Virus record (IMG/VR): IMGVR_UViG_3300005528_000050
Span: 22,967 to 86,966 of that record
Length of the DNA: 64,000 nt
Reading direction: 5' to 3' (one strand)
Origin: a virus
This document shows positions 13,103 to 64,000 of this stretch, in pieces; within the stretch, counting starts at the first letter, position 1, and each line of letters starts with the position of its first letter. The position numbers were made by a program, and so were the translations under genes. Under the pieces are notes generated by a model. The model was not told where the DNA came from. It worked only from the letters and a program-made list of their open reading frames with translations, and searched no databases.

Positions 13103-13138
13103 GATTCAAATATAATTAATAATTTTTAAAATGTCAAT

Positions 13139-39118: not shown

Positions 39119-40243
39119 TTATTCTTCTTCATCTTTTCGATAACTTTCCAAGAGTTCCTCCCCTGAAAGTGTACCGTATTTATTTACAATTTTTTCGGTG
39201 TCTATTTCAACATTCATCATGTGATGAACATTATTTAATTCTTCGGCTAATGATAAACTATCACTAATCACTTTAACGATTTTATATGGGTCCGCGTGTG
39301 ATGCTGGTCTCCTGTCTTCAAGATAACCCTTCCATGTCTCACCAACGGATTTTGGTACACGGATAGATGCACCTCTGTCTGAGACACCCCAACTAAATTT
39401 ATCAATAGATTGTGTCTCAAAATGACCTGTTAATCTCAAATGGTTATCAGAACCATAAGAGTCAATATGTTCTTGTGTTCTTGATTCAAAAGACCTAAAA
39501 ATTGCATTGAAGTATTGTTCACCACCCTCTTCTCTCATTTTTTGATTTGAGAAATTTGTATGTAAACCTGAACCGTTCCATTCTCCGTGGGTCATCGGTT
39601 TGGGATGTAACTCAATAGAACGACCATATTTCTCAGCAATTTTATGTAAAAAATATCTACTCATCCATAAATCATCAGAAGCGGCAATTTTACCTGTTGC
39701 AAAAATTTGGTATTCCCATTGACCTAATGCAACCTCTGAATTGGTTCCCTCCACATTGATGTCATATTTTAAACACATGTTCAAATGTTCATCAGAAATA
39801 TTTCGACCAACAATATGTCCACCTACACCACAATAATAAATTCCTTGACCGTCAATGATACCATTTCTTTCAAATCCAAGAATTGGATTATTATGTGAAG
39901 AACGAATAAAATATTCCTGTTCAAATCCAACCCAAAAATTTACATCTTCCTCACCTACTTTTGCTCTATGATTTGATGGATGAATTTCATTATTACCATC
40001 TAAAACCTCACATAATACATATACTGTATCAAGTGAACTATTTGTATGATATAATTTTACTGGCTTAAGATAACAATCTGAAAAGTTACCTTCCGCTTGT
40101 TTAGTTGAGCTTCCGTCAAACCCCCAATTGGGGATGTGTTTCAATTCAAATGGTGCCGGTAGGTCCACAATTTTTATTTTACTTCTGAGATTTGGCTCAG
40201 GGGAATACCCATCAAGCCATACGTATTCTACTTTTGTTTTCAT
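39119..40243 (-). CDS. glnA: Glutamine synthetase, type II
   Basis: A 374-residue protein of the eukaryote-type (GSII) class also found in Bacteroidota: YVWLDGYSPEPNLRSK, PNWGFDGSSTKQAEG (ATP and metal), WVGFEQEYF, GQWEYQIFA, NGSGLHTNFSN, SDRGASIRVP and DRRPASHADPY follow in the correct order. It ligates ammonia to glutamate with ATP. Length (about 370) and motifs indicate an intact enzyme. Phage-encoded GS is rare; it may raise glutamine supply for nucleotide synthesis. Overlaps the preceding gene by 4 nt. Confidence 0.93.
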   Translation of the reverse strand: MKTKVEYVWLDGYSPEPNLRSKIKIVDLPAPFELKHIPNWGFDGSSTKQAEGNFSDCYLKPVKLYHTNSSLDTVYVLCEVLDGNNEIHPSNHRAKVGEEDVNFWVGFEQEYFIRSSHNNPILGFERNGIIDGQGIYYCGVGGHIVGRNISDEHLNMCLKYDINVEGTNSEVALGQWEYQIFATGKIAASDDLWMSRYFLHKIAEKYGRSIELHPKPMTHGEWNGSGLHTNFSNQKMREEGGEQYFNAIFRSFESRTQEHIDSYGSDNHLRLTGHFETQSIDKFSWGVSDRGASIRVPKSVGETWKGYLEDRRPASHADPYKIVKVISDSLSLAEELNNVHHMMNVEIDTEKIVNKYGTLSGEELLESYRKDEEE

Positions 40244-41227: not shown

Positions 41228-42076
41228 TTATTCTTCAAACATTACCAGTTGTTTCTTTTGGTTATCATAATCAATCAATCTCTGTTGAGATATCTTTGTG
41301 TAAGATTCTGATAACTCAAAACCAATATAATTTCTATTCAGCTTCTTAGCTGACAAAGCGGTGGTTCCACTTCCTGAAAAACAATCAACAATCAGGTCAT
41401 TTTGATAGGAAAGTATTTTTATTGCTTTCATTGGGATGTCCATGGAGAATGTGGCTTTAGTTAAAGATTTTGTGTCGTTGAAGTATTTCCATTGACCAAA
41501 GACTAATTCCATGAATTCGTTTTTGTCTTTATCTGAATAAACCCTTTTGTTTTTAAAATTACCTTCCTCGTTTTCGACCTCAATCTGATTATAAGACCAT
41601 TGAGATATACCTTTTTCTTTCTTTTTGTAATCTTTCTTATATGCAAGAATTACACATTCTTTTGGATTGTATATGTATGGTGATGATGGTGACATCCAAG
41701 AACCCCAAGCGGTTGTTTTAGAACGGTGTGGAGAATCCTCCTCTAAGTCCACAACACCAAAGAATCCAAAACCAATCTCTTTCATCATCTGCCAATATTC
41801 AGATACTAAGAAAATTCTCCCACCTCTTTCTCTAACGTTTATTTCATATGGTATATTCAAGGCAATTCTACCATCATCTTTTAATGTACGGTAAACTTCG
41901 GATAACCATTTCTTACACCACTCAAAATACTCATCCATCGGAGCATCGTCTTTGTGCACATCATAACTAATACCGACATTGTACGGTGGACTCGTAACAA
42001 AGAGGTCTACAGTACCGTCATTTAACTCCTTAAACAGTTCTAAGCAGTCACCCTGATAAATTTTATTCATTTCCAT
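41228..42076 (-). CDS. DNA methyltransferase, beta class
   Basis: A 282-residue enzyme from the ATG at 42076 (MEMNKIYQGDCLEL). Motif IV DLFVTSPPYNVGISY near residue 30 comes before motif I DCFSGSGTTALSAKK near the end, the beta-class order. SPPY rather than DPPY is typical of N4-cytosine enzymes, though N6-adenine is possible. No restriction partner seen; probably protects phage DNA or overlaps host sites. Confidence 0.88.
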   Translation of the reverse strand: MEMNKIYQGDCLELFKELNDGTVDLFVTSPPYNVGISYDVHKDDAPMDEYFEWCKKWLSEVYRTLKDDGRIALNIPYEINVRERGGRIFLVSEYWQMMKEIGFGFFGVVDLEEDSPHRSKTTAWGSWMSPSSPYIYNPKECVILAYKKDYKKKEKGISQWSYNQIEVENEEGNFKNKRVYSDKDKNEFMELVFGQWKYFNDTKSLTKATFSMDIPMKAIKILSYQNDLIVDCFSGSGTTALSAKKLNRNYIGFELSESYTKISQQRLIDYDNQKKQLVMFEE

Positions 42077-42140
42077 TGACAAATTGTTTTCTATTTATTA
42101 TTATTACAAAAGATAACGAATAAAAAACAATAAACCAAAA

Positions 42141-42148
42141 TATTTATA
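42141..42148 (+). promoter_or_regulatory. TATTTATA promoter-like element
   Basis: 15 nt before the ATG at 42164; the clearest of its class on the plus strand. Confidence 0.45.
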
Positions 42149-42163
42149 AAAAAACTTAAAATC

Positions 42164-42349
42164 ATGGGATGCGGATGTAAAAAAAGAAACCAACCTGTTA
42201 GTAATCAAACGGTAAACATTCAACTAACCGAAGGTGGTTCAACACCTCCACAGGAGATTACAATTATGGAACAACAACTTGACCAAATCATAAAAAAGGT
42301 TGAGGAGATTAACAATCAAACTAACGAAGAAAACACAGAAGGACAATAA
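42164..42349 (+). CDS. Small Cys-rich N-terminal protein (MGCGC type)
   Basis: A 61-residue protein starting MGCGCKKRNQ, then polar and ending in a coiled stretch (IMEQQLDQIIKKVEEINNQ). Short proteins with MGCGCxK starts are common in Bacteroidota phages and may be metal-binding. A second of the kind (MGCSNCKQKK) lies at 57951. Followed by a strong terminator. Confidence 0.6.
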   Translation: MGCGCKKRNQPVSNQTVNIQLTEGGSTPPQEITIMEQQLDQIIKKVEEINNQTNEENTEGQ

Positions 42350-42353
42350 ATTG

Positions 42354-42388
42354 TATCGGACAGTCTAATAAATTGTCCGATATTTTTT
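42354..42388 (+). terminator. Rho-independent terminator
   Basis: A 9-bp stem TATCGGACA / TGTCCGATA (42354-42362 with 42374-42382), 11-nt loop and six T. Ends the transcript from 42164. Confidence 0.85.
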
Positions 42389-42425
42389 GTCTTTTATAAT
42401 ATATATAAATTTATATACTTATATT

Positions 42426-42626
42426 ATGCCTAAACAACAAACAAAACTAACCAGCGTTAACATCATAGATGATGTTTATAAAAGATTTAAGATAAAAAGT
42501 GTAGATGGTTCAATCAATCTACAAAAATTAGTAAACCGAGCTCTTGACCTATATAACACTAGAGAAGATTTTAGAAAACAAATTGATAATCACAACGGTC
42601 TTGCACCAAACGGTTCCAAATTTTAA
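42426..42626 (+). CDS. Ribbon-helix-helix-like DNA-binding protein
   Basis: A 66-residue protein from ATG 42426 (MPKQQTKLTSVNIID). The strand LTSVNIIDDVYKRF, helix INLQKLVNRALDLYN and EDFRKQI fit a ribbon-helix-helix fold as in Arc or MetJ. First gene before the glycan locus, so it could control it. The frame is open upstream but the additional 13 residues are unlikely. Confidence 0.62.
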   Translation: MPKQQTKLTSVNIIDDVYKRFKIKSVDGSINLQKLVNRALDLYNTREDFRKQIDNHNGLAPNGSKF

Positions 42627-42675
42627 GTTGTGAATTTTATTTCTTATATTATCATCAATATTTTAAAACAAAAAA

Positions 42676-44133
42676 ATGATTACAATAGGTTACAGTACAA
42701 GAGAGTCCAACCCAAAATTTCAAGAATATTTAAAAAAAACTTGTGGACACCCCAAAGTTCAAGTTATTGAAAAAGTAAACAATGGTGAAAAAAGTCTTTC
42801 ACAAACTTACAATGAAATTATTCAAGAGTCGATTCATGATATTGTCGTACTTTGTCATGATGACATTTACTTTAATACGACTTCGTGGGGTAGAAAATTA
42901 GTCAAACATTTTGAAGAATCTGACTACGGGATTCTCGGTGTTGCCGGTACAACCAATATTCATGAGAGTGGTAGGTGGTGGACAGATAATACCAAAATGG
43001 TTGGTATTGTTAATCATGAAAATGAGGGTAAAAAATGGGAATCGAGATATGCAAATGGAATCCCAAATTCAATTCACGAAGTTTGTTTAGTGGATGGTTT
43101 ATTCATTGGAATCCACAAAAACAGAATAAAACACACTTTTGATGAGTCAGTACCGGGTTTTCATTTTTATGATATGGTATTCTGTACTAGCAATCACTTA
43201 AGTGAGGTAAACATCGGTGTTATATACAACATAAGAATCACTCACAAATCAATCGGAATGACCAATGATTCTTGGGAAAAGAATAGGGAATTTTACATTG
43301 AAAAATTTAAAGAGAACCTACCAATTAATATAACACCAAAAATTGATTATGACATAACCAAACCAAAACAGTTTAAAGATAAATTTAATTTAATAGTTCA
43401 AACATCAAACGATAATGAAAATTTAATTCAGTTTTTTGAAAACATAAAAAAATTACCAGTGTTTGATAGTTTACAGATTTCACTCATCTCGACGGATACC
43501 AATATAGACAATATTAGAGAATTTGAATCTGAAAATATTAAAATTTACGAGGGTTTTTTTGATACATTAAATAAAAACTTATCAGTACTGAAATGGGATG
43601 AATCGTTTATGGAATCAAAAACAGATTTGTTATTTTTCAGTAATGATACTGTTACCGTATTGAACGACGTTTTCTCAAGTATGTATTCAATATTTAAGAG
43701 TGAAAAAAATACTTTTGGGTGCGTCTTTCCTACAGTATTAGAAAACGACCGAACAATTTTTTCAAATGGATTGGATATAGTTCAAAACAACGAACAGTTC
43801 AATTTAATTTTTAAAAACAAATCATCTTTTTTCAATATTTTACACGGACACTTTCCAAACAATTTTGGTAGTATTAGTGACTTTTTTGCCACTACATCTA
43901 CAAATTTAAAAATGATTGATTGGTTTGATATTAATTTAGAAACATCAATTTATAACTTAGATTTTGCGTTGAAAACTTTACTTAAAAAACGTAAAACATT
44001 CATTGACACAAACAGTGTGGTAATGATTGATATGGCATCAAAATTTGAAAAGGTTGATGTTGAATTAAAACAAGTCTTAGGTCAGTACATAAACTCACCT
44101 GAAATTAGAAAAAATATCAAACAATTAAGATGA
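42676..44133 (+). CDS. Glycosyltransferase, GT2-like, two-part
   Basis: A 485-residue protein. The first half is a GT-A domain: ITIGYSTRESNPKFQEYL, NNGEKSLSQTYN, VVLCHDDIYF as DxD-type site, and VDGLFIGIHKNRI. This corresponds to Glyco_tranf_2_5-type proteins. The second half is a more variable domain, FNLIVQTSNDNENLI, with no clear catalytic site. First gene of the 15-gene glycan locus; ATGA overlap to the next gene. Donor and acceptor unknown. Confidence 0.82.
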   Translation: MITIGYSTRESNPKFQEYLKKTCGHPKVQVIEKVNNGEKSLSQTYNEIIQESIHDIVVLCHDDIYFNTTSWGRKLVKHFEESDYGILGVAGTTNIHESGRWWTDNTKMVGIVNHENEGKKWESRYANGIPNSIHEVCLVDGLFIGIHKNRIKHTFDESVPGFHFYDMVFCTSNHLSEVNIGVIYNIRITHKSIGMTNDSWEKNREFYIEKFKENLPINITPKIDYDITKPKQFKDKFNLIVQTSNDNENLIQFFENIKKLPVFDSLQISLISTDTNIDNIREFESENIKIYEGFFDTLNKNLSVLKWDESFMESKTDLLFFSNDTVTVLNDVFSSMYSIFKSEKNTFGCVFPTVLENDRTIFSNGLDIVQNNEQFNLIFKNKSSFFNILHGHFPNNFGSISDFFATTSTNLKMIDWFDINLETSIYNLDFALKTLLKKRKTFIDTNSVVMIDMASKFEKVDVELKQVLGQYINSPEIRKNIKQLR

Positions 44134-44909
44134 TAAAAATTGTATCGGGATTTACAGAAAAAGGTGGTTCTACCACTTTTTTTATAAACTTAACAAATTT
44201 CTTAAATGAAAATGGTATTGATTGCACATTTTACGGTAATCAGAATTACCATTTAGACAAATGTAAATCAGGGAACATTGAAAAAGATTTAAAGTATGAA
44301 TCTGATGATATTGTAATTACCCATTTTTTACAACTACAGGAAAGACCACCTGTTAAAAAAGTTATTTTGTCTTGTCATGAAAAATGGTGGTTCCCTGTTG
44401 GTAAAATTAAACAGTATTGGGACCTGTGCGTGTTTTTACATGAAGAGCATCGAAAATATCACTCGGATTACAGGGGTGATTATGTAATAATACCAAACAT
44501 CAAAGAAAATTTAATTATTTCAAATAAAGAGCTGGTAAGAAATATTGCAGGAATTATTGGTACAATTGAAGACAGAAAACAGACCCATGTGTCAATACAA
44601 AGAGCATTAAAAGACAGGTGTGAAAAAATCTATTTGTTCGGTCACATCGGTGACCAAAACTATTTTGACAAATTGGTAAAACCTTTAATGAATCCAAGAG
44701 TAATTCATTACGGTCACACCACCAATAAACAAGAAATGTACGATATGATTGGTAAGGTATATCACTCATCAAAGGGTGAGGTTGCTTGTTTGGTTAAAGA
44801 TGAATGTTATTTAACCGGTACAGAGTTTTATGGTAATGAAGAGACTATGAATGAAGTTTCTAAATTAAGTAACGAAGAGATATTAACACTTTGGAAAAAC
44901 ATATTTTAA
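44130..44909 (+). CDS. GT-B-type glycosyltransferase-like protein
   Basis: A 259-residue protein starting MIKIVSGFTEKGGSTTFFIN, a Gly-rich N-terminal loop as in GT4 enzymes, with YVIIPNIKENLI and AGIIGTIEDRKQTH as the inter-domain part and ECYLTGTEFYGNE near the end. Somewhat short for a GT4. Coupled at both ends (ATGA with upstream, 1 nt before the next gene). Confidence 0.65.
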   Translation: MIKIVSGFTEKGGSTTFFINLTNFLNENGIDCTFYGNQNYHLDKCKSGNIEKDLKYESDDIVITHFLQLQERPPVKKVILSCHEKWWFPVGKIKQYWDLCVFLHEEHRKYHSDYRGDYVIIPNIKENLIISNKELVRNIAGIIGTIEDRKQTHVSIQRALKDRCEKIYLFGHIGDQNYFDKLVKPLMNPRVIHYGHTTNKQEMYDMIGKVYHSSKGEVACLVKDECYLTGTEFYGNEETMNEVSKLSNEEILTLWKNIF

Positions 44910-44910
44910 A

Positions 44911-45633
44911 ATGAAGATACACGCACATATACTGTCATGGAATGAAGAAAAAATATTACCATTCACATTGGATTACTATAGTACAATCTGTGAAAAAATA
45001 TTCATATACGATAATATGTCAACGGACTCCTCTGATGAGATTTATAAGAGGTACCCAAAAGTTGAGGTTATTAAATGGGATAGTGGTAATGAAATAAATG
45101 AAATTAATTACGTAAACATTAAATCCGAAGAGTATAAAAAAAGAAGTAGAGGTCAGGGTGTTGATTGGGTTATAGTTTGTGACTGTGATGAGTTTATATA
45201 CCATGAAAATCTTATGGATAAACTTCAAGAGTACAAAGAAATGGGTATAACCGTCCCAAGAATAGACGGTCACGACATGGTTAGTACTGAATTTCCAATA
45301 TACGACGGTGAATTCATTACAACAAAAATTAAAACAGGTTCACAAACGTATGAACCAATGTGTAAAAATATAATTTTTCATCCTGATTTAGATATAAAAT
45401 ACGGCATTGGTGGTCACAGTTTTAATTCTGTTGATGGTAAATTTTCGGATGAGCGGGAAATAAAACTTCTTCACTATAAATTCTTGGGTAAAGACTACGT
45501 GAAGAACATTTACATTTCAAGAGCAAAGAGATTGTCATCGTTCAATAAACAACATAAATTCGGTGAACATTATTTTAATTTACCATTCAATTACATGGAC
45601 AGCATGTTAAAAGAAAATTATCAAGTTATATGA
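44911..45633 (+). CDS. Family 2-type glycosyltransferase
   Basis: A 240-residue protein of the Glyco_tranf_2_4 type: HILSWNEEKILPFTLDYY, IYDNMSTDSSDEI and VIVCDCDEFIYH (DxD-type) are the ordered marks; then LLHYKFLG. It acts on nucleotide sugars in the cytoplasm. Start overlaps none but the end overlaps the next gene by 4 nt. Confidence 0.84.
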   Translation: MKIHAHILSWNEEKILPFTLDYYSTICEKIFIYDNMSTDSSDEIYKRYPKVEVIKWDSGNEINEINYVNIKSEEYKKRSRGQGVDWVIVCDCDEFIYHENLMDKLQEYKEMGITVPRIDGHDMVSTEFPIYDGEFITTKIKTGSQTYEPMCKNIIFHPDLDIKYGIGGHSFNSVDGKFSDEREIKLLHYKFLGKDYVKNIYISRAKRLSSFNKQHKFGEHYFNLPFNYMDSMLKENYQVI

Positions 45634-46451
45634 GGAAAATACTTATATCGGATTTTACCATTAAAGAAGTACCTCACGGTGGTTCTGAATGGGTGAATCA
45701 AGTTTTAATTGATAGATTTAATCTTGAGTTTGAATATTCAAACCAAGTCAAGTCATTTGATTACAACGCCCTGTATATTATATCAAATATTTCTTTGATG
45801 AACCCAAACTTGGTTAATCAAATACAAAATTTGAACTACGTCATTATTGAAAACGATTATAAAATATGTGCAAGTAGACACCCATGGAGATATACCGACA
45901 ACATAATTCCGATTGAGGAAAGAACCAACTATTCTCTTTACCGGAATGCAAAAGCGGTATTTGTTCAAACAACCGACCACATGAACGTTTATCTTAAAAA
46001 CGATGTTGTTGCTAATTTTATAAATCTGAATAGTTCGATATGGTCAAATGAGGACTTAGAATTATTGAGGAATTTAAATAAATCCAACAATGTTAAAAAC
46101 GACAAATATTCTGTTTACTATACAAATAATTGGATAAAGAACACCCAAGGTAGTCTGAAGTATTGTTCTGAAAATAAATTACCGGTCCATATTCTTAAAG
46201 AATCTAAAGACAGAGTTGAATTTTTAAGTAATATGGCCAAATGTAAAGGTATTGTGTTTTTCCCGATAGCAAGAGAAACTTTTTGTAGACTGGTTGTTGA
46301 GGCAAAATGTTTAGGTTTGGAAGTAATAACGACACAAAATTATGGTGCAAGTTTAGAAGAATGGTTTAATAGGTTATCAGGTGATGAATTAATTGATTTC
46401 TTAGAAACTAACACTTTAAAAAATTTAGAAATCATTTCAACTTATATATGA
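45630..46451 (+). CDS. GT-B-type glycosyltransferase
   Basis: A 273-residue protein: VPHGGSEWVNQVLID in the N-terminal loop and GIVFFPIARETFCRLVVEA in the C-terminal domain, equivalent to the EGFP/E-x7-E motif of GT4. ATGA overlaps at both ends. Substrate unknown. Confidence 0.75.
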   Translation: MRKILISDFTIKEVPHGGSEWVNQVLIDRFNLEFEYSNQVKSFDYNALYIISNISLMNPNLVNQIQNLNYVIIENDYKICASRHPWRYTDNIIPIEERTNYSLYRNAKAVFVQTTDHMNVYLKNDVVANFINLNSSIWSNEDLELLRNLNKSNNVKNDKYSVYYTNNWIKNTQGSLKYCSENKLPVHILKESKDRVEFLSNMAKCKGIVFFPIARETFCRLVVEAKCLGLEVITTQNYGASLEEWFNRLSGDELIDFLETNTLKNLEIISTYI

Positions 46452-47440
46452 TATTATTTTGTTACGGCACAAGACCTGAGTATATTAAAATAAAAAAATT
46501 AATAGAAATGTGTGGGGAAAGTATTCCCCATAAAATTTTATATGTTACCCAACACAAAGATATTGTATTGGGTGATTTTGATTATAAATTATCCATTGAT
46601 GATACGTGTGAAAATAGATTGGATAGTATTATGTCATCCGTATTTTTAAATTTTAAAAAAGAATTTTTGGAAGGGGTTACACATATACTTATCCAAGGGG
46701 ACACCGCAACCGCTCTTTCATTATCCCTAATAGGATTACACCATAAAAAAGAAGTGATTCATTTAGAAGCGGGATTACGGACATATGACTACAATCACCC
46801 TTACCCCGAAGAAATGTATCGGCAGTTAATTAGTAGAATTTCAAACTATAATCTTTGCCCAACAGAAAGTAACAAGATGAACTTAGAAAATGAAAAAGTT
46901 CAGGGTAAAAATTTTGTAGTTGGCAATACCGTATTAGATAATCTTAATAAAGAAAATATTACATACGAAAATAAAGTCTTAATCACTTTACATAGAAGAG
47001 AGAATCATGAGATGATGTCGGAGTGGTTTGATGTTATCAATCGATTAGCAAAGAATAATCCTGAATTAAAATTCATTCTTCCAATACACCCAAACCCAAA
47101 CGTCATAAAACACAAACATATATTGACACATGTTGATGTTATTGAACCATTAACCCATGATAAATTTATTGAGGAATTCAAATCCTGTAAATTACTAATT
47201 TCAGATAGTGGGGGTGTTCAAGAAGAGGCGTCGTTCCTAAATAAGAAAGTTATTGTATGTAGAGAAAAAACTGAGAGACCTGAGTCCTTGGGTAAAACGT
47301 CTTTTATATGTAAAAAACCCATTGACTTAGAAGGTATTTTTTACGATATTATTAACGATTTCCAAACAGAATATGATTGTCCTTTTGGTGATGGTAATTC
47401 TTGTGAAAGAATCATTGAAATATTTAGAAAAATTGTATGA
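46448..47440 (+). CDS. wecB: UDP-N-acetylglucosamine 2-epimerase
   Basis: A 330-residue enzyme matching WecB throughout: FCYGTRPEYIKIKKLIE, VTQHKD, ILIQGDTATALSLSL, VIHLEAGLRTYDYNHPYPEE, TLHRREN, ILPIHPNPNV, LISDSGGVQEEA and CREKTERPE. It interconverts UDP-GlcNAc and UDP-ManNAc, supplying ManNAc donors to the surrounding transferases. It is slightly short at the C-terminus. In the centre of the operon. Confidence 0.92.
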   Translation: MILFCYGTRPEYIKIKKLIEMCGESIPHKILYVTQHKDIVLGDFDYKLSIDDTCENRLDSIMSSVFLNFKKEFLEGVTHILIQGDTATALSLSLIGLHHKKEVIHLEAGLRTYDYNHPYPEEMYRQLISRISNYNLCPTESNKMNLENEKVQGKNFVVGNTVLDNLNKENITYENKVLITLHRRENHEMMSEWFDVINRLAKNNPELKFILPIHPNPNVIKHKHILTHVDVIEPLTHDKFIEEFKSCKLLISDSGGVQEEASFLNKKVIVCREKTERPESLGKTSFICKKPIDLEGIFYDIINDFQTEYDCPFGDGNSCERIIEIFRKIV

Positions 47441-48165
47441 GTATAACGGTAATATTAAATGGGTATAAAAGACCACATGTTCTCCAAAAACAATTGGAAT
47501 CAATTAGAAATCAAAGTGTCCAACCCGAATCAATTTTATTTTGGCAAAATTCTGGTTCTCAATTTGATGAGGGACTAACCAAAGATTTAATTCACGCATC
47601 TTGTAATAGTAATTTAGGTGTGTGGGCAAGATTTGCATTTGCTTTAAATGCCAACACAGAATATATTTGTGTTTTTGATGATGACACAATACCGGGTAAA
47701 CTATGGTTAGAAAACTGTCTAAACACCATGAAAATTCAAGAAGGTTTATTAGGAACTATCGGTGTAAAATTTCACACAAAAAACTCTTATTGGCCAGCAA
47801 CAAGAGTCGGTTGGGACCAACCTAACGAAGAAATTGAAAAGGTCGACATTGTTGGTCACTCGTGGTTCTTTAAAAGAGAATGGTTATCGATATTTTGGAG
47901 AGAATTACCTGAAATCAATCAGAGTAAATTAGTTGGTGAGGATATGCACTTTTCATATACATTACAGAAATACGCAAATATCGGAACTTACGTTCCTCCC
48001 CATCCTAAAGAAAATAGAGAAATGTGGGGTAGTATACCAGAATATGCATGGGAACATGGAACTGATTCCAACGCAATTTCCGTAAATCATTCAAATATGA
48101 ATTTAATGGGTGAAGTTTACCGTGGGTATGTAAATAAAGGATTTAAGACAATATTAAATGATTGA
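47437..48165 (+). CDS. Family 2 glycosyltransferase
   Basis: A 242-residue GT-A protein: MSITVILNGYKRPHVLQKQL, ILFWQNSG, CVFDDDTIPG as DDD metal site, VDIVGHSWFFKREWL, and GEDMHFSYTLQ as the acceptor ED motif. Probably acts on UDP-sugars. Overlaps the upstream epimerase by 4 nt and the downstream gene by 8 nt. Confidence 0.86.
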   Translation: MSITVILNGYKRPHVLQKQLESIRNQSVQPESILFWQNSGSQFDEGLTKDLIHASCNSNLGVWARFAFALNANTEYICVFDDDTIPGKLWLENCLNTMKIQEGLLGTIGVKFHTKNSYWPATRVGWDQPNEEIEKVDIVGHSWFFKREWLSIFWRELPEINQSKLVGEDMHFSYTLQKYANIGTYVPPHPKENREMWGSIPEYAWEHGTDSNAISVNHSNMNLMGEVYRGYVNKGFKTILND

Positions 48166-48877
48166 AAAGTATATTGAAGATTTTAATTCGTTTTGGGAAA
48201 AGATAGATAGTCGAACTAACTTTTCTTTTGTTAGATATGCCGATGGTGAAGTGATGTTAATGAATAATTCACCGATAGAAAAGAATACACAAGCGTATCA
48301 AAACGATAAATGGTTTTCGAGTGGGGGACAAACCAAATTAGGTGTGGATTTAAATGAATGTATAGGGTTGAACGACCCAAATTTTTATTTTGCAATATCC
48401 TCCAAAACTGATAGTATTAGAGACTATAATTTTTTATATGATAGAATACAAAATAAATCAAACATTACATTTGCTAACCTATGGATTAACGCAAATTACA
48501 AAGAAAATATATCAAGAATAAGAAATATAAATCGAGATGTTGTTTTAATTTGTAATGAAAATTGTGATTTAAAAAACATACCATTTAGTGTATCAGAATT
48601 TGTACCGTTCCCTAATGATTGTGTAAACTATTGGGAAGAACATAGAGATTCGTTTTTAGAAAAAATATACAATGTTTCTTCAAAATATAAAGATACTTTA
48701 TTTATCGTATGTTGTGGACCAACATCTGCTGTTATCATAAAACATATGTTTACAAATAATAGTAATAACACTTATATTGATTTTGGTTCCGCATTAGATG
48801 TATTCATACATAATAAAATAACTAGACCATACATGTATGAAGGGTCACAATATCATAATCACATATCAAAATTTTAA
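48158..48877 (+). CDS. GT-D fold-like glycosyltransferase
   Basis: A 239-residue protein with SFVRYADGEVMLMNN (an R-x-x-DGE motif as in the GT-D/DUF1792 family) and VCCGPTSAVIIKHM with YIDFGSALDVF near the end. The family transfers sugars in pathogen surface-protein glycosylation. The assignment rests on the DGE and GP(A/S) features. It overlaps the upstream gene by 8 nt. Confidence 0.68.
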   Translation: MIEKYIEDFNSFWEKIDSRTNFSFVRYADGEVMLMNNSPIEKNTQAYQNDKWFSSGGQTKLGVDLNECIGLNDPNFYFAISSKTDSIRDYNFLYDRIQNKSNITFANLWINANYKENISRIRNINRDVVLICNENCDLKNIPFSVSEFVPFPNDCVNYWEEHRDSFLEKIYNVSSKYKDTLFIVCCGPTSAVIIKHMFTNNSNNTYIDFGSALDVFIHNKITRPYMYEGSQYHNHISKF

Positions 48878-48883
48878 TTCAGT

Positions 48884-49474
48884 ATGAATAATGATTTTTG
48901 TGTCATAGTACAAGGACCTTCAGACTACGTTAAAGAATTAAAAAACGCTTGGACTGGTTATGATTTGATTTGGTCAACATGGCAAGGTGAAGAATCAAAA
49001 TACGATACTAATGATGTTGTCTTATTCAACAGTATTCCACACGATAGGGGTGTACAAAATATAGCACTACAAAAAATATCAACTTTGAATGGAATAATGA
49101 AAGCCAAAGAAATAGGTTACAACAGAGTCCTTAAATGGAGAAGTGATTTACTACCATCTAATGCAAATAGATTAGTTTCCACATTTAAAAAAGAGTGTGT
49201 AAATTTTTTGACTTGGCATAATGAAGGAAAATATTTTGTTGATTATTTTGTGGAGGGTGAAATAGATACGGTGTTTGATATTTGGAATGTATCTACCATA
49301 CACGATGAGTATTCGGAAAAAATAATCACGGAAAATATAATATCACTTAACTATAAAAATATAAACTTTATGGGTGGCGAATTAAGTAATGATAATGAAA
49401 TTTTTTGGTTAAAACGAAATATTAATTTGTCCACATATAAAGACGCACCATGTTATAGTATGGTGGTGATTTAA
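48884..49474 (+). CDS. WavE-like LPS biosynthesis protein
   Basis: A 196-residue protein: CVIVQGPSDYVKELKNAW, WSTWQGEESKYD, NIALQKISTLNGIMKA, and RVLKWRSDLLPS fit the WavE family of putative glycosyltransferases. Shorter than usual for WavE (about 300), with no obvious truncation of the core. Acts on the sugar chain of a surface polysaccharide by family inference. Confidence 0.7.
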   Translation: MNNDFCVIVQGPSDYVKELKNAWTGYDLIWSTWQGEESKYDTNDVVLFNSIPHDRGVQNIALQKISTLNGIMKAKEIGYNRVLKWRSDLLPSNANRLVSTFKKECVNFLTWHNEGKYFVDYFVEGEIDTVFDIWNVSTIHDEYSEKIITENIISLNYKNINFMGGELSNDNEIFWLKRNINLSTYKDAPCYSMVVI

Positions 49475-49485
49475 AAATTATAAAA

Positions 49486-50220
49486 ATGATAGATAATTCA
49501 AAATTTATTGACGACGCATTTACTCAAGATGAATTAAATAGGGGTGCCTTTACCGATTTGAATGGTAGATGTCCATTATGGACAACAAAAATGATTAATG
49601 TTATAAAAGATAAAATTGACTTTAATGATGTCAACACAATATTAGATATTGGGTCAAGAGATGGTTGCCAAAGTTTAGAGTTAAATAGATGGTTTCCACA
49701 TGCTAAAATATATGCGTTTGAACCAGTAAAAGAAAACTACGAATTTACAGTTAAGAACGTTGAGAAAATTAATAACATAAAAGTTTACCAATACGCAATA
49801 AACAATTACAACGGTAAAACTAAATTTTACGAAGTTTATAATGGAAATGTGGGTGCCAGTTCTTTATTACAGACAACAAACCACTGGCGTTCATCTCAGT
49901 GGGCCCAAAAGGAAACTGAGGTTGACTGTATTGTTCTTAGTGATTGGTTAAAAGAAAATGATATTAAAAGTGTTGATTTGATTTGGATGGATGTTCAAGG
50001 TGCAGAAAATATCGTATTAGACTCTCTAAAAGAATATTTAAATGATGTAAAAATAATAACCACCGAAGTAGGGTTACAGGAATTATATCGTGGTTCTACA
50101 AGTAAATCTGAACTAGATGAAAAACTAAATAGGTTTATACCAATAGACGAGTCGCCAGAATCTTCAAACACAGAAATGGATGTGGTTTATATCAACAAAA
50201 ATTTAACACCTTATGGATAA
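49486..50220 (+). CDS. FkbM-family methyltransferase
   Basis: A 244-residue SAM-dependent enzyme: TILDIGSRDGCQSLEL motif I, IYAFEPVKENYEF, VDLIWMDVQGAENIVL and ITTEVGLQELY. FkbM proteins O-methylate sugars or polyketides, here most likely a glycan residue. It overlaps the next gene by 8 nt. One of two such genes in the locus. Confidence 0.88.
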   Translation: MIDNSKFIDDAFTQDELNRGAFTDLNGRCPLWTTKMINVIKDKIDFNDVNTILDIGSRDGCQSLELNRWFPHAKIYAFEPVKENYEFTVKNVEKINNIKVYQYAINNYNGKTKFYEVYNGNVGASSLLQTTNHWRSSQWAQKETEVDCIVLSDWLKENDIKSVDLIWMDVQGAENIVLDSLKEYLNDVKIITTEVGLQELYRGSTSKSELDEKLNRFIPIDESPESSNTEMDVVYINKNLTPYG

Positions 50221-50914
50221 TAAAATTTGTTACGTTACTTATACAAATTCAAAATGTTCAGATATTTTGGATATGTTCTTGTTAGAACAAAAAAAGTACA
50301 CAAACTTACCGATGTATTTTATTACAGATGTAATGATACCCGAGCAAATTTGTTTTTTATATGAAAATCAAGAACCTTATTATGAATCATGGTTAAAGTG
50401 TTTATCTTCAATACCATATGACTATTTTATATACTTACAAGAAGACTTTATTCTTTATAACAATGTCAGTCATGATAAAATTTTTAATTACCTCGATTTT
50501 TTACATGATAACCAAGAATATTCGTTCATTAGATTGTTAAAATCGGGGTCTGTTAAAGATAAAAAAATTTATGAGACCTTATATGAAATAGAATCCGACA
50601 ATAAAGATATATTTTCTATGCAACCAACTATTTGGAAAAAAGATGATTACATTAAAATCATGAAAGGTACCAAAAATAATATGTGGTTAGAGAATGAAAC
50701 ATATAGAAATTTTATGATAGAAAACAACATCAAAGGTTTATATCATTACGATGGTGAAAACAAAAGGGGGTTGAATCATTTTGATAGTTCTGTTTATCCA
50801 TATATAGCAACGGCTTTAGTTAGAGGTAAATGGAATTTATCTGAATACCCTAATGAACTCTCTCCATTAATAAATGAATATGAAATAAACGTAAATGTTC
50901 GGGGGATACATTAA
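50213..50914 (+). CDS. GT-A-like glycosyltransferase
   Basis: A 233-residue protein: MDNKICYVTYTNSKCSDIL, YFIYLQEDFILY as the metal-binding loop (QED) and PTIWKKDDYI. Layout resembles small GT-A enzymes with the E-D in place of DxD. Acceptor and donor unknown. Followed after 2 nt by the next transferase. Confidence 0.65.
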   Translation: MDNKICYVTYTNSKCSDILDMFLLEQKKYTNLPMYFITDVMIPEQICFLYENQEPYYESWLKCLSSIPYDYFIYLQEDFILYNNVSHDKIFNYLDFLHDNQEYSFIRLLKSGSVKDKKIYETLYEIESDNKDIFSMQPTIWKKDDYIKIMKGTKNNMWLENETYRNFMIENNIKGLYHYDGENKRGLNHFDSSVYPYIATALVRGKWNLSEYPNELSPLINEYEINVNVRGIH

Positions 50915-50916
50915 TA

Positions 50917-51591
50917 ATGAAAATTGTTCTATCTTTTTACACCAACAATAAATTTAGTAACACCGTTCAAAAATTAATCGGATATTATAATTCACGTGGT
51001 TTCAATGATATCCGAGGATTTAAATCTGAAGATGTTAAGAAAGGTATTTTTTATGAAAACCATAAAGAAATATTAGATTGTGAAACGGGTGATGGATTTT
51101 GGTTGTGGAAACCAAAAATTATTTTAGATATTTTGAATGAATTAGAAGATGGGGATGCATTAATTTATACCGATGCCGGTGATTTAGTTGATGTTGATTA
51201 TAATACGATTGCAAATTATTTGAAAGATAATGATTATTATTTTACAAATTGGAATGGAAATCGTTGGCCTCAAAAAATATGTACAAAAAGAGACTGTTTT
51301 ATCTTGATGGATTGTGATGAAGAAAAGTTTCATGAAACACCACAGATGGAAGCAGGATTTATCATCATTAAAAAAACCAAACAAATGATGGAATTTGTTC
51401 ACGATTATTTTAAGTATTGTAGTATTAAACAGATAGTTGACAATGAACCAAATCAAATTGGTGAGAATTTTCCAAATTGGCAATTCCATAGAAATGACCA
51501 AAGTATATTAACTAACTTGGTTGTGAAACATAATTTAAAATTTGATTATTGTCTCGATTATAGAATAAAATACAACGTATATATACCATGA
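50917..51591 (+). CDS. Glycosyltransferase-like protein (GFWLWKP type)
   Basis: A 224-residue protein: KIVLSFYTNNKFSNTVQ, GFWLWKPKIILDIL, ALIYTDAGDLVDV (a DxGD-like metal site) and HRNDQSILTNLVV. This is a polysaccharide-locus transferase family known by its Y/FWxWKP motif. Donor unknown. Overlaps the next gene by 4 nt. Confidence 0.75.
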   Translation: MKIVLSFYTNNKFSNTVQKLIGYYNSRGFNDIRGFKSEDVKKGIFYENHKEILDCETGDGFWLWKPKIILDILNELEDGDALIYTDAGDLVDVDYNTIANYLKDNDYYFTNWNGNRWPQKICTKRDCFILMDCDEEKFHETPQMEAGFIIIKKTKQMMEFVHDYFKYCSIKQIVDNEPNQIGENFPNWQFHRNDQSILTNLVVKHNLKFDYCLDYRIKYNVYIP

Positions 51592-52349
51592 AATTTATTG
51601 CATTAAATTATAATTATGACTTAAATAAAATGTCCCAAATCGGTCGGAAATGGGCGTTTGATGTCTACAAAAATAAAGAGTTTATATCTGATTATTCATC
51701 AGCATCTTATGCTTCATTTATTGATAAGAATAGAAAAAGTATTTTACATCTTTATACTGATGATGTTGAGGGTATGAAAGAAAAAATGAACAAGTATAAC
51801 ATTGACCAAGACAGAATTATTTATATTGATTACACGGAACAACTTACCAAATACAATGAAAGTCTTAATTATAGTTTTACAGTTTTAAATGATTTTATTA
51901 ATTATGCAAAATCAGAAACTGAGTACACTGTAAAAATCGATAATGATTTATTTTTTCATTCGGAATTACCACAAATTGATGATAATTCTATTATGGTTTG
52001 GAAGTATGAAAGAATCGTTAGGAATGGTGACCCGAGATGGGGTGAAATAAAAATATGTAAACAGGTTACAAATGATTTAGATTTTAAAATTTATAATTTA
52101 GGTATTTTTGGGTTGCCCGCGGATTACAATATTCACCAAGCAAAAAAAATTATGGAAGATATGATATCGGTAGACATTTCAGATGTGACTGATACAGACT
52201 CGAAGATTTATCATTGTTGTGAGCAAACGGCAAATAATTGGATTTTTCACAAAGAAAATTATAACGTGATTGAAACGTATAATTATGTTGACCACCTGTT
52301 TGATAGAAAAGGTGATTGTATAGAATTATCAAAATATCTTTTAAAATGA
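51588..52349 (+). CDS. GT-A-like glycosyltransferase
   Basis: A 253-residue protein: MKFIALNYNYDLNKMSQIG, ETEYTVKIDNDLFFHSEL with an IDND metal-like site, and SIMVWKYERIV. The core arrangement is GT-A-like. ATG and stop coupled with the neighbours (4 nt each). Specificity unknown. Confidence 0.65.
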   Translation: MKFIALNYNYDLNKMSQIGRKWAFDVYKNKEFISDYSSASYASFIDKNRKSILHLYTDDVEGMKEKMNKYNIDQDRIIYIDYTEQLTKYNESLNYSFTVLNDFINYAKSETEYTVKIDNDLFFHSELPQIDDNSIMVWKYERIVRNGDPRWGEIKICKQVTNDLDFKIYNLGIFGLPADYNIHQAKKIMEDMISVDISDVTDTDSKIYHCCEQTANNWIFHKENYNVIETYNYVDHLFDRKGDCIELSKYLLK

Positions 52350-53113
52350 AAACATCAGTAGTATTGACAATTCACAACAAGGAATTCTTAATGAACCAAG
52401 TGGTGAGTAACTTGGTAAATAATTTATCAGAACTGAATGACCAGATTGTAATAGTTTTTGATGGTTGTACAGATAATAGTGAAGGTATTGTTCGTGACAA
52501 TTTAAAGAGAGTTAGTAATAAAAAAATTGATTACCTGTATGCCGACAATGTTTTTGAAACCAAAGCAAATAATATTGGTCTAAAGTCTGTTATAAATGAT
52601 TATGTGGTCTTAATCCAAGATGATATGGTTGTCACAGAAAAAGATTTTGATAAGAGGATGTTGGAACCGTTCATAAAATATAGTGATGTGTTCGCTGTAA
52701 CATCTTTTGTTGCTCACAATAACATCTATAATGAACAAACAAAACAAATAAATTACATCGATATTGCACATAAAGATAACTCATCAAGAGATATTTTTTA
52801 TGCTAGAGAATATGGTAACAGAGGTCCACTAATGTACAACTATAATGACGTGGTCAAATTAAATTTTTTAGACGAATATTTTTCACCCCAAAATTATGAT
52901 GATATGGATATGTCCATGAGAGCATTCAAAGAACTCGGAAAAGTGTCAGGTTTATATACGATAGATTATATTTCCGAACCTGGATGGGGGACCACTAGAC
53001 AAAAAAATCAATCATTACATAATAATTTAGTTTACGTAAACGCAGCAAAAATACTTGAAAAACACAGGGATTTATTGTATAATAAAGACAAATATAAAGA
53101 GGATAGAGAATGA
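52346..53113 (+). CDS. Family 2 glycosyltransferase
   Basis: A 255-residue protein from ATG 52346 (MKTSVVLTIHNKEFL), the ATGA-coupled start. GT2 features: VVLTIHNKEF, IVIFDGCTDNSEGIV, YVVLIQDDMVVTEKD (DxD-like QDDM) and DDMDMSMRAFKEL. A start at 52316 would add ten residues overlapping the upstream gene. Substrate unknown. Confidence 0.86.
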   Translation: MKTSVVLTIHNKEFLMNQVVSNLVNNLSELNDQIVIVFDGCTDNSEGIVRDNLKRVSNKKIDYLYADNVFETKANNIGLKSVINDYVVLIQDDMVVTEKDFDKRMLEPFIKYSDVFAVTSFVAHNNIYNEQTKQINYIDIAHKDNSSRDIFYAREYGNRGPLMYNYNDVVKLNFLDEYFSPQNYDDMDMSMRAFKELGKVSGLYTIDYISEPGWGTTRQKNQSLHNNLVYVNAAKILEKHRDLLYNKDKYKEDRE

Positions 53114-53727
53114 ATAATATAGAGCTAAAGACATTTATGATTAATCATAATGTTAATATCCATGGTGTGATTCACGTTGGTGCACATTTTGGTCAAGAAG
53201 ATGAAGTTTATAAGGAATTGGGTATTTCAAACAGAATATACTTTGAACCTCTATCGTCTAATTTTGAGACCTTAAAAGAAAAAATAGATGATGACGCAAT
53301 TTTAGTTAAACTGGCGTTAGGTAATGAAAAGAGAAAAGTTTCTATGTTTGTAGAATCCTTTAATAAAGGTATGTCATCCTCAATATTAGAACCGAAATTA
53401 CATTCTGTTCAATTTCCTCATATCGTTTTTGATTCTGTAGAAGAAGTTGAAATGGATAGATTGGATGATTTAAATTACGATTTTTCAAAATACAACATGA
53501 TGAATATCGATGTTCAAGGTTTTGAATTAGAGGTTCTCAAAGGTTCCGTGAATACATTAATCAACATTGACTACGTTATTGTAGAAATAAACAGAGCCGA
53601 ATTATATAAAGGTTGTCCACACTTTGATGAAATAAACAATTGGATGACACATCATGGGTTTACCTGTGTTGAACAATTTTGGTGGGGTAATAATTTTGGT
53701 GAGGGATTTTTTAAAAAAATAAAATGA
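53110..53727 (+). CDS. FkbM-family methyltransferase
   Basis: A 205-residue enzyme: VIHVGAHFGQEDEVYKEL motif I, RIYFEPLSSNFETL, YNMMNIDVQGFELEVLKG, YVIVEINRAELYKG and WGNNFGEGF. A second glycan O-methyltransferase candidate, divergent from the one at 49486. ATGA overlaps at both ends. Confidence 0.88.
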   Translation: MNNIELKTFMINHNVNIHGVIHVGAHFGQEDEVYKELGISNRIYFEPLSSNFETLKEKIDDDAILVKLALGNEKRKVSMFVESFNKGMSSSILEPKLHSVQFPHIVFDSVEEVEMDRLDDLNYDFSKYNMMNIDVQGFELEVLKGSVNTLINIDYVIVEINRAELYKGCPHFDEINNWMTHHGFTCVEQFWWGNNFGEGFFKKIK

Positions 53728-54785
53728 AACGAGTATTAGTATTGGGTGGTGGCGGATTTATTGGTGGTCACCTAGCAAAAAGATTAAAAAATGAAGGAAA
53801 CTACGTAAGAGTAGTTGATATAAAAAGACACGAATATTTTGATGAGAAAGACTTTTGTGACGAATTCTTAATATATGACCTTACGGACCCAAAAAACGTA
53901 TCATCAGTAATGAGATTAGAAGAATTAAATGGTACGATATTACCGTTTAATTATTACAAACAACCATATTCAACTGAGGTCCCATTTGATGAGGTTTATC
54001 AATTAGCTGCCGATATGGGTGGTGCTGGTTACATCTTCACTGGTGAAAATGACGCGAATGTTATGCACAATTCTGCAATGATAAATTTAAATGTTGTAAA
54101 TGAATCAGTGAAGACAAAAGTTAAGAAGATTTTTTATTCATCATCGGCATGTATGTATCCTGAACACAATCAATTAGACCCTAACAACCCAAATTGTGAA
54201 GAATCATCAGCATATCCCGCGAATCCTGATTCAGAATATGGTTGGGAAAAACTTTTTTCGGAAAGGTTGTACTTGGCTTTTCACAGAAATCACGGTTTGG
54301 ATGTTCGAATTGCTAGATTTCATAACATATTTGGTCCATATGGTACGTGGAAAGGTGGTAAAGAAAAAGCACCAGCAGCTATGTGTAGAAAAGTTGCCGA
54401 AATGTTAGACGGTGGAGAAATTGAAGTTTGGGGTGATGGTCAACAGACTCGTTCATTCTTATATGTGGATGAATGTGTTGAAGCGGTTTTAAGACTAATG
54501 AGACAAGACTCTTTTTTGGGTCCTGTAAACATTGGTTCTGAAGAGAAAGTAACAATTAATGATTTGGCTCAAATGGCTATAGATATTTCAGGTAAAGAAA
54601 TTTATATCAGAAATATTGGTGGGGAAGAATTTAAACAGAAGTATGGATATAAATGTCCTGTTGGTGTGAGGGGAAGAAATTCAGACAATAAATTATACCA
54701 CGAAAAAATAGGTTGGGTTGTTAGTGAACCTCTGTTCTATGGAATGGAAAAAACCTATAAATGGATTAATAGTTTAGTTAAATAA
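53724..54785 (+). CDS. GDP-mannose 3,5-epimerase-like extended SDR
   Basis: A 353-residue NAD(P)-dependent epimerase: VLVLGGGGFIGGHLAKRL, AADMGGAGYIFT, YSSSACMYP, EYGWEKLFSERLYLAF (YxxxK catalytic pair), RFHNIFGPYGTW and GGKEKAPAAMCRK, a set characteristic of GDP-mannose 3,5-epimerase, which makes GDP-L-galactose. Closing gene of the glycan locus; it supplies a donor sugar. Ends 2 nt before a strong terminator. Confidence 0.88.
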   Translation: MKRVLVLGGGGFIGGHLAKRLKNEGNYVRVVDIKRHEYFDEKDFCDEFLIYDLTDPKNVSSVMRLEELNGTILPFNYYKQPYSTEVPFDEVYQLAADMGGAGYIFTGENDANVMHNSAMINLNVVNESVKTKVKKIFYSSSACMYPEHNQLDPNNPNCEESSAYPANPDSEYGWEKLFSERLYLAFHRNHGLDVRIARFHNIFGPYGTWKGGKEKAPAAMCRKVAEMLDGGEIEVWGDGQQTRSFLYVDECVEAVLRLMRQDSFLGPVNIGSEEKVTINDLAQMAIDISGKEIYIRNIGGEEFKQKYGYKCPVGVRGRNSDNKLYHEKIGWVVSEPLFYGMEKTYKWINSLVK

Positions 54786-54818
54786 AAAAGGGGGTTATTG
54801 ACCCCCTTCTTTTTTTTC
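54784..54818. terminator. Bidirectional terminator
   Basis: An 8-bp stem AAGGGGGT / ACCCCCTT (54788-54795 with 54801-54808), a C and then T8 on the plus strand and T-rich on the minus. It ends both the plus-strand glycan locus and the minus-strand redox genes; the stem overlaps the 3' end of the glutaredoxin gene. Confidence 0.88.
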
Positions 54819-55088
54819 AATGTATTTTAATATAATTGCTAACGCCTCGTCGTCCCCATTAAAATCTTTTTCGGGACAAAAAAAGGGTCCTTTACCAGTG
54901 TCGTCTTTTTTAATGTAAAAGGCGGGTAAATATTCATTACCCGTTTGTTCAATTACTTTATTCCAAATCTCTTTATTCTTACCAACTTCAACTTCTCGGT
55001 AAGGTAATGATTCTTTTTGGAGTCTCTCTTTTAATCTTTTACAACCTCCACAACCCTCAAGTGTAAATAGAAGTAATTCATTCGCCAT
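54795..55088 (-). CDS. Glutaredoxin-like protein
   Basis: A 97-residue thioredoxin-fold protein: LLLFTLEGCGGCKRLKERL places the CGGC active site at about residues 13-16; YLPAFYIKKD carries the cis-Pro. It could reduce disulfides of phage ribonucleotide reductase or other proteins. Coupled with the thioredoxin gene (1 nt apart). Confidence 0.82.
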   Translation of the reverse strand: MANELLLFTLEGCGGCKRLKERLQKESLPYREVEVGKNKEIWNKVIEQTGNEYLPAFYIKKDDTGKGPFFCPEKDFNGDDEALAIILKYIEKKEGGQ

Positions 55089-63735: not shown

Positions 63736-64000
63736 CTAATTTTTTTTTTCTTCCTCAATGGGAAGTTGTTCATCTTGTATTGGTTCCTCAACAATCGGTT
63801 CAGGTGTTTCAATTATTTCCTCAACAATCGGTTCAGGTGTAACAATTGGTTCTTCAATTACTATCGGTTGTTCTTCAACTATTACAGGTTGTTCTTCAAC
63901 AATTGGTTCTTCAATTACTATCGGTTGTTCTTCAACTATTACAGGTTGTTCTTCAACAATTGGTTCAGGAGTAATAGTTGTTTCTTCAATTACTATCGGT
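63736..64000 (-). CDS. Pro/Glu/Val/Ile repeat protein, 3' part only
   Basis: The visible 87 codons form an acidic repeat protein (PIVIEE, EEQPVIVEEQ, TPEPIVEE) that leaves the window at 64000. The zero frame stops at TAG 63736, just after the A10 run; in the -1 frame it would continue for about 50 more residues of matching acidic composition to 63587. Proline/glutamate repeats of this sort form extended, rod-like or flexible linkers in virion or fibre proteins. Function unknown. Confidence 0.65.
   Translation of the reverse strand, partial: PIVIEETTITPEPIVEEQPVIVEEQPIVIEEPIVEEQPVIVEEQPIVIEEPIVTPEPIVEEIIETPEPIVEEPIQDEQLPIEEEKKN
63740..63749 (-). other. A10 homopolymer, candidate slippage site
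   Basis: Ten consecutive A on the coding strand directly before the TAG stop of the repeat protein. One extra A, or a -1 slip, joins the reading frame with the downstream LEESPQQEESLENF stretch. Confidence 0.4.
63844..63957 (-). repeat. Two tandem 57-nt coding repeats
   Basis: Units 63844-63900 and 63901-63957 are identical by eye and encode a 19-residue unit (PIVIEEPIVEEQPVIVEEQ). A third unit begins at 63958 and diverges after about 10 nt. In-frame repeats of this kind change length by recombination. Confidence 0.8.

Follow-up and report, generated by a model that had tools for sequence, protein, structure and literature searches.

The window analysed here (64,000 nucleotides (nt), positions 22,967 to 86,966 of the 86,966-nt IMG/VR virus record IMGVR_UViG_3300005528_000050) carries a glycan biosynthesis island of 15 plus-strand genes, g01 to g15 (42676–54785), preceded by a small gene for a ribbon-helix-helix (RHH)-like protein. 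With a probability of about 0.42, the island is read as an exchangeable, late-expressed, glycan-building cassette of a T4-type jumbo phage that decorates a virion protein. A virion acceptor is favoured because of a motif suggestive of late timing, the neighbourhood of related cassettes, the lack of matches to the carrier and export families searched, and a capsid-derived gene found in relatives. An earlier note, made from the letters of this DNA alone, had described a phage-borne glycan cassette acting on an existing acceptor, a proposal supported by the gene families, by viral contigs identical at 100% and by the absence of any tested export-family match. As a whole, its observation is partly confirmed and its interpretation partly supported.

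Gene content and carrier genome

The 15 coupled genes in ~12 kb described in the earlier note are indeed found as open reading frames (ORFs) at the coordinates given below. Their 14 junctions comprise 10 overlaps of 4 or 8 nt and four gaps of 1, 6, 11 and 2 nt, and a spacing of 49 nt separates the RHH gene (g00) from g01. Glycosyltransferase is abbreviated GT.

41228–42082, minus: flank, N6/N4 DNA methylase (PF01555, E 3e-36), divergent from the island, same place in relatives
42426–42626, plus: g00, RHH-like small protein of 66 amino acids (aa); PF23807 (RHH_10) E 0.0055, below cut-off; same place in relatives
42676–44133, plus: g01, GT-A glycosyltransferase (Glyco_tranf_2_5, PF13712, E 2.9e-24) with an extra C-terminal half
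44130–44909, plus: g02, possibly GT-B-like; own protein without Pfam match, 1 of 6 relatives matching PF00534 at 0.018
44911–45633, plus: g03, GT2-type glycosyltransferase (PF13704, E 3.2e-15)
45630–46451, plus: g04, weak GT1 (GT-B) match (PF00534, E 0.0025, below cut-off)
46448–47440, plus: g05, UDP-GlcNAc 2-epimerase family (PF02350, E 4e-60; 6vlb, E 1.3e-43)
47437–48165, plus: g06, GT2 glycosyltransferase (PF00535, E 1e-6)
48158–48877, plus: g07, GT-D-like, weak (PF22882, E 1.2e-4, below cut-off; 4 of 13 family members match)
48884–49474, plus: g08, WavE-like, weak (PF07507 matched by two of the five family members, best 2.2e-4, but not by the window's own protein)
49486–50220, plus: g09, FkbM methyltransferase (PF05050, E 1e-19)
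50213–50914, plus: g10, GT-A fold transferase (AlphaFold2 pLDDT 91.0; Foldseek; VIA-align)
50917–51591, plus: g11, no credible Pfam match with its own protein or the family alignment
51588–52349, plus: g12, GT-A fold transferase with a conserved DND (AlphaFold2 pLDDT 93.3; Foldseek 4ayj, E 3.3e-6, TM about 0.5)
52346–53113, plus: g13, GT2 glycosyltransferase (PF00535, E 1.7e-12)
53110–53727, plus: g14, FkbM methyltransferase (PF05050, E 1.3e-16)
53724–54785, plus: g15, GDP-mannose 3,5-epimerase family (PF01370; plant enzyme 2c59, E 1.3e-87)
54788–54808, both strands: bidirectional terminator hairpin, 9-bp stem with T-runs on both sides, as already proposed
54795–55088, minus: flank, glutaredoxin (PF00462, E 1.7e-8), then thioredoxin and AAA ATPase; conserved neighbour

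The earlier count of at least ten transferases holds for the four GTs over the Pfam cut-off (g01, g03, g06, g13) and for two of GT-A fold predicted by AlphaFold2 and Foldseek (g10, g12), whereas three candidates are weak (g04, g07, g08) and two lack assignment (g02, g11). The g10 model aligned best with B4GALNT1 (VIA-align Z 14.9, 172 aligned residues, 2.8 Å); nucleotidyltransferases such as KdsB also rank for it, and the comparison therefore speaks for the fold and not for the activity. PDB profile searches of g02, g07, g10 and g12 returned chance-like matches, with the exception of GalT1 for g07 (E 0.0071), ranked under serine-protease rows.

Family matches bear out the FkbM methyltransferases (g09, g14), the UDP-GlcNAc 2-epimerase (g05) and the GDP-mannose 3,5-epimerase-like protein (g15) named earlier. 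By family match and motifs, g05 fits a UDP-GlcNAc 2-epimerase, keeping in alignment with such enzymes the functional motifs GDT, HLEAGLRT, PEE and HRREN; at 330 aa it is shorter than the solved enzymes (367–413 aa). By similarity and catalytic motifs, g15 fits the GDP-mannose 3,5-epimerase family, with SSACMYPE, YGWEKL and GTWKGGKEKAPAA kept in alignment to 2c59; the catalytic residues of the family are a Cys, Tyr-x3-Lys and a Lys. The most widely shared GT is g01, present in 37 of the 80 loci found through g15 (the best 80 of at least 600 stretches with g15 relatives in viral contigs, used for the counts of g15 loci). Compared with locus L007, genes g11 to g15 show dN/dS values of 0.03–0.08, that is, purifying selection, and the hydropathy of the 16 proteins (maximum KD19 1.51) reveals no strongly hydrophobic or membrane-type segment.

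Over its length, the record is 99.999% identical to part of G001, a sister record of 233,563 nt which encodes T4-type gp23, TerL, portal, protease and sheath among other genes, and thus is a T4-type phage genome. Host DNA misassembled into the contig, the objection that the earlier note had itself raised, was rejected, as 12 other viral contigs contain both flanking genes together with g10 and g12, all at 100% identity, and diverged relatives keep the flanks; such an origin is very unlikely, and the island is phage DNA. All 15 genes were examined in L004, L005, L006 and L008 (g01 in part). Base composition is uninformative on foreign origin (30.2% G+C in the island, 32.3% in the remaining window), and a scan of genome contigs for recent capture from bacteria, made with the g02 alignment only, yielded three distant Verrucomicrobia matches at 28%. 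In viral contigs, g12 occurs at 17 loci (12 at 100%, 5 at 74–83%) and g10 at 25. Within 50,697 phage records, no match was obtained for g12 (E 1e-3) or g01 (E 1e-5), and 213 match g15, all below 60% identity, including 84 Synechococcus and 64 Escherichia phages.

Matches of the G001 capsid in phage records are likewise all below 60% identity. Ranking by coverage × identity places RM378 (34%) and Flavobacterium phages (41%) on top, whereas bit scores, among the matches listed, favour a Microcystis phage (294; 41%), an uncultured phage (287) and Flavobacterium phages (285) over RM378 (211); the two rankings disagree and the capsid match therefore leaves the host unsettled. The host may be Bacteroidota, and to call this T4-type jumbo phage possibly of Bacteroidota is a guess. 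No tRNA gene was found in the window, and a sigma-70 promoter scan gave 80 sites against 84 expected. The record ends in a short repeat (window 63817–63989) matching several spots near 143.8 kb of G001, perhaps the reason why the assembly stops. In the structural region of G001, positions 107307–123725 (L096, L097) form a single ORF of 5472 aa.

The site, its control region and the phoH slot

The island lies between Dam, AAA, thioredoxin and glutaredoxin genes on one side and leader, methylase, DUF192 and glutamine synthetase genes on the other. Its described position on the strand opposite to its surroundings is correct for the nearest neighbours, methylase and glutaredoxin, and not for some genes further out, such as DUF192 (40830), which are on the plus strand. 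The glutamine synthetase gene (39119–40243; PF00120, PF03951) has counterparts in nine moraphages (PMC12619734).

Both flanks are present in one contig in the window's lineage, in contig 3300044846_003597 (L193/L218) and in L212, the last two enclosing gene sets different from the window's, with g01 kept in both. One flank accompanied by further gene sets is found in L190, L191, L192, L213, L214, L215/L216, L220 and L222, and L215 and L222 have few genes in common with the window. The contents include a DegT aminotransferase, WbqC, a hexapeptide transferase and PhyH (L191), half of a transketolase and a HAD phosphatase (L218), a UDP-galactopyranose mutase (L215) and an aminotransferase (L214). 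The earlier note had suggested looking for the same island in related phages; islands with varying gene sets were found there at the same site. A search for the site without any island, flanked on both sides, found none. As read from the sequence, the site is a conserved front end (TATTTATA, leader, hairpin, palindrome and RHH gene), behind which the sugar genes vary from relative to relative, and the start of the unit should better be placed upstream, at the leader (42164). The front end consists of:

42141–42148, plus: TATTTATA motif, late-promoter candidate, exact, 15 nt ahead of the leader
42164–42349, plus: leader ORF of 61 aa (MGCGCKK...), conserved in relatives
42353–42383, plus: hairpin with T-run between leader and RHH gene, similar sequence being found upstream of the RHH gene in several relatives
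42402–42417, plus: perfect 16-bp palindrome TATATAAATTTATATA upstream of the RHH gene, candidate RHH operator

The palindrome matches the window once (0 mismatches; 0.01 expected) and is kept upstream of the RHH gene in L211–L213, L215 and L225, with a looser form in L214, L218 and L220; its role as RHH operator is plausible. As to the regulator, proposed earlier as possibly RHH, the family match did not reach the cut-off, while the gene is conserved in place among relatives.

The TATTTATA motif and its context are kept before the leader in the L211–L213/L225 group and in L214. Of the 284 ORFs of G001, 24 have an exact copy in the 60 nt ahead of them, compared with ~5 in shuffles, and these copies are concentrated in structural blocks (16/74 ORFs versus 8/210 elsewhere, p 1.4e-5; ORF starts from a simple in-house caller, blocks at 19–83 and 92–133 kb with boundaries drawn by the analyst), none of the 75 ORFs at 200–233 kb having one. 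TTTGG...TAnnTTTG sites precede 14 G001 ORFs, 13 of them above 177 kb (L099–L102, 177–232 kb) and none in the island, and may form a class of early promoters, in contrast to TATTTATA. The form of these sites at one G001 end, TTTGG-N-TAnnTTTG, matches the Bacteroidota promoter.

A second location was recognized by following g15 and its neighbours, the full GT cassette per locus not being counted. The 80 loci reduce to 66 after deduplication, 55 of them with 6 kb downstream; here phoH follows g15 on the same strand in 39/55 (within 500 nt in 30 of those), a late-sigma-like gene in 40/55 and a hub-like gene in 33/55. In G014 and G008, the cassette is bordered by phoH on one side and, beyond one intervening stretch, by a dUTPase-like gene on the other, and it runs in the same direction as the late-sigma-like and other genes. 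G001 has the same phoH block without a cassette (phoH 43313–44029, next gene from 44056), its own cassette being located at 153–166 kb, about 110 kb from this slot. Within a glycan cassette at the phoH slot, L061 encodes a RuBisCO-large-chain-like protein (12628–13803; PF00016, 7.1e-34).

Among 12 diverged loci with the AAA flank, the genes beyond glutaredoxin are of GT type in five and tail-fibre-like in five, L195 and L199 fitting neither. The tail-fibre label comes from P-SSM2 fibres matched by phmmer in L197 and L198, and from the appearance of the sequences in L194, L196 and L200. In these five records the other flank has no evident orthologue (pieces of the methylase at 25–40% in 1/5, glutamine synthetase in 0/5, in one search without positive control), and g15 has at most distant relatives (pieces at 22–33% in 2/5). 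Exchange of the GT island for tail-fibre genes at the same site, considered as a candidate, is therefore weakened, as only the glutaredoxin flank is common to those phages.

The acceptor of the glycan

In several relatives, namely the L211/L212/L213 group, L214, L218 and L220, a protein of 112–125 aa, composed of two stretches of gp23 whose order is exchanged, is encoded between the RHH gene and the first GT. In L220 it corresponds to residues 340–404 of the G001 major capsid protein followed by residues 85–106. The ORFs located are:

L214, 9047–9382: mini-capsid ORF, between RHH gene and first GT
L218, 8370–8723: mini-capsid ORF, between RHH gene and first GT
L220, 2130–2483: mini-capsid ORF, between RHH gene and first GT
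L212, 7637–8011: mini-capsid ORF, between RHH gene and first GT

L191 has a 46-aa mini-capsid fragment beside g01, at the contig end, and no island-type gene was matched beside the mini-capsid gene of L228. The dN/dS values of this gene, 0.44 and 1.05, derive from very few changes and are no proof of constraint.

Nothing for polymer export (Wzx/Wzy) had been seen in the earlier note, in agreement with the searches made here: PF01943 (Wzx type), PF04932 (Wzy/ligase), PF02397 (WbaP type) and PF00953 (WecA type), the only families tried, had no match in 11/11 phage records, which may be fragments and three of which are of the window's lineage. As positive control, these families match in 13, 9, 9 and 12 of 14 control genomes, respectively.

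In the favoured reading, the glycan would be placed on a protein of the virion, whether of tail, baseplate or capsid. The unusual sugars would come from the two epimerases, g15 converting GDP-mannose to GDP-L-galactose or L-gulose and g05 converting UDP-GlcNAc to UDP-ManNAc. The chain would be built stepwise in the cytoplasm by soluble GTs, perhaps beginning with the widely shared g01, and the FkbM enzymes would O-methylate it. The RHH protein may bind the TATATAAATTTATATA palindrome and tune its own operon, with the cassette expressed in the late programme together with the virion genes, and similar phage chassis would thereby carry different sugar coats.

Several observations weigh against a late-expressed virion cassette. 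The acceptor is putative, and the island of the window has no mini-capsid gene, as is also the case in L215 and L222. The TATTTATA motif is absent directly before the leader in L218, L220, L222 and L223 (in L218, an extra ORF stands directly before the leader and the motif precedes that ORF), most copies lie 3–20 nt from a start codon and may instead be signals for translation, and copies with one mismatch show no enrichment (60 against 54 expected). In addition, gp23 is without the motif and gp18 has a one-mismatch copy. TATTTATA is thus a candidate promoter, and as it precedes the leader, which the hairpin separates from the island, it is not established as the promoter of the genes from RHH to g15. 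The names of the phoH-slot neighbours are weak (late sigma 6.3e-4, baseplate hub 1.3e-3), and in G014 and G008 gp23 lies ~13.5 kb from the cassette end, on the opposite strand; because of these two points, the virion reading was lowered and that of a host-envelope target raised.

Remodelling of the host lipopolysaccharide (LPS), O-chain or capsule is accordingly a serious possibility, if still short of probable. Cytosolic phage GTs would extend host lipid-linked or core oligosaccharides, to be exported by the carrier, flippase and ligase of the host, which would block competing phages or re-adsorption of progeny. Published work favours modification of the host O-chain for such genes: a host-envelope role is the reading given to the GT clusters both of pelagimyophages and cyanophages (PMC7029224, PMC9602691) and of jumbo phages (PMC13282480). 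A host-envelope target is also consistent with the weak WavE (LPS) match in two g08 relatives, and with the WbqC, UDP-galactopyranose mutase, DegT, PfkB and cytidylyltransferase genes in cassettes of other phages; the missing export genes may come from the host. On the contrary, the late-type motif and the neighbourhood, with the limits given above, speak for virion proteins, and neither a membrane protein of the serotype-conversion type (by hydropathy of the 16 proteins) nor a match to the four carrier and export families in the 11 records was found. A set of cytosolic GTs that lacks export genes would fit LPS remodelling too, provided that the host takes over export, and therefore virion and host readings are close.

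A more specific form of virion decoration is unlikely: the cassette as a virion 'serotype' locus, in which the mini-capsid protein of relatives, a helical segment followed by an earlier strand, would serve as an inbuilt acceptor, or as an adaptor, and bring the glycan onto the capsid, with g01 acting directly on a virion protein in the window's lineage. If true, phages with one chassis would exchange entire sugar coats at a regulated locus, as bacteria do with their capsule loci.

It is still less likely that the genes serve several acceptors, or make a small glycoconjugate for secretion, instead of one chain. Single genes are gained, lost and reordered in a modular manner among relatives, in keeping with such a function, whereas the order of g06, g07 and g10 is kept in 10 of the 11 displayed loci, the 11th beginning after them and all 11 having been found through g10 or g12.

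GTs of some phages glycosylate modified DNA bases, and a function of this kind, as in T4, is highly improbable for those encoded here. The precedent is described also in PMC12619734. A multi-sugar chain agrees better with 11 GT candidates, two methyltransferases and two sugar epimerases. Moreover, G000, G001 and G016 have one thymidylate-synthase gene, whose GLPFN motif (Asn, read in the window's copy) is that of true thymidylate synthases, unlike dCMP hydroxymethylase; other base-modification genes were not searched for. The thymidylate synthase of the window (35856–37181) contains an extra segment and its Pfam match is split in two stretches.

Comparison with known phage islands

This kind of island has been known since the Prochlorococcus phage P-SSM2, and its gene families are otherwise ordinary. 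P-SSM2 carries an LPS/glycan island comparable to the present one, with 15 genes over 12.1 kb (PSSM2_257–271), and is reportedly credited with 24 LPS genes in the paper describing it. Similar islands of ~14 and ~13 genes are present in S-SSM7 and S-SCSM2R, all three runs including some hypothetical or other genes, and the claim that the number of transferases here exceeds that of known phages did not survive this comparison. The three are T4-type myoviruses with 13–15 co-directional genes in ~11–12 kb that combine GTs with nucleotide-sugar epimerases; a methyltransferase is annotated in the P-SSM2 and S-SSM7 islands, and g15 homologues at 57–58% identity occur in S-SSM7 and S-SCSM2R. In S-SCSM1, 13 cell-wall proteins have been counted (PMC9602691). 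The island of the window shares these traits, with a T4-type genome, GTs, nucleotide-sugar enzymes and methyltransferases. The cyanophage islands differ in having other GTs, g12 and g01 having no match in phage records, and cyanobacterial hosts. Antitoxin-like small genes lie several genes upstream of the island in S-SSM7 and S-SCSM2R, where the RHH-palindrome front end was not searched for; the wcaG RNA annotated beside the S-SCSM2R island had no Rfam match at the gathering threshold in the window.

The serotype-converting gtr genes of temperate phages are another case of phage-borne sugar transfer that may change surface glycans, through a membrane GT and a GtrA-type flippase. In contrast, no membrane-type segment was seen in the 16 proteins of the window's island and PF01943 did not match, the GtrA family itself not being searched.

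Three features were not met in the parts of the literature covered here, which does not prove them unpublished: the control region with variable contents, the phoH slot without cassette and the mini-capsid gene. The role of the many GTs of large aquatic phages is usually answered by analogy with the host O-antigen; a concrete alternative, a virion coat, is offered by the recurring phoH slot, by the capsid-derived gene of relatives and by a control region that stays conserved while the genes behind it vary, and these features make the virion-versus-host question testable.

The host recognition cluster of pelagimyophages and cyanomyophages (PMC7029224) resembles the present island as a hypervariable island of GTs and sugar genes in T4-type phages, but is described between VrlC and gp14 and with tail fibres. 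The location differs here, since the window's island lies between glutaredoxin and the N6/N4 methylase and that of relatives upstream of phoH (VrlC and gp14 themselves not being located). The nearest group described in the literature searched, likened by its description, is that of the moraphages, aquatic jumbo phages comprising 25 genomes that form a clade for major capsid protein, TerL and PolB, in whose capsid tree a Rhodothermus phage falls outside the moraphage clade (PMC12619734). According to that source, their core genome holds four putative GT groups, nine of them have a glutamine synthetase, and their inferred host is, as may be the case here, Bacteroidota.

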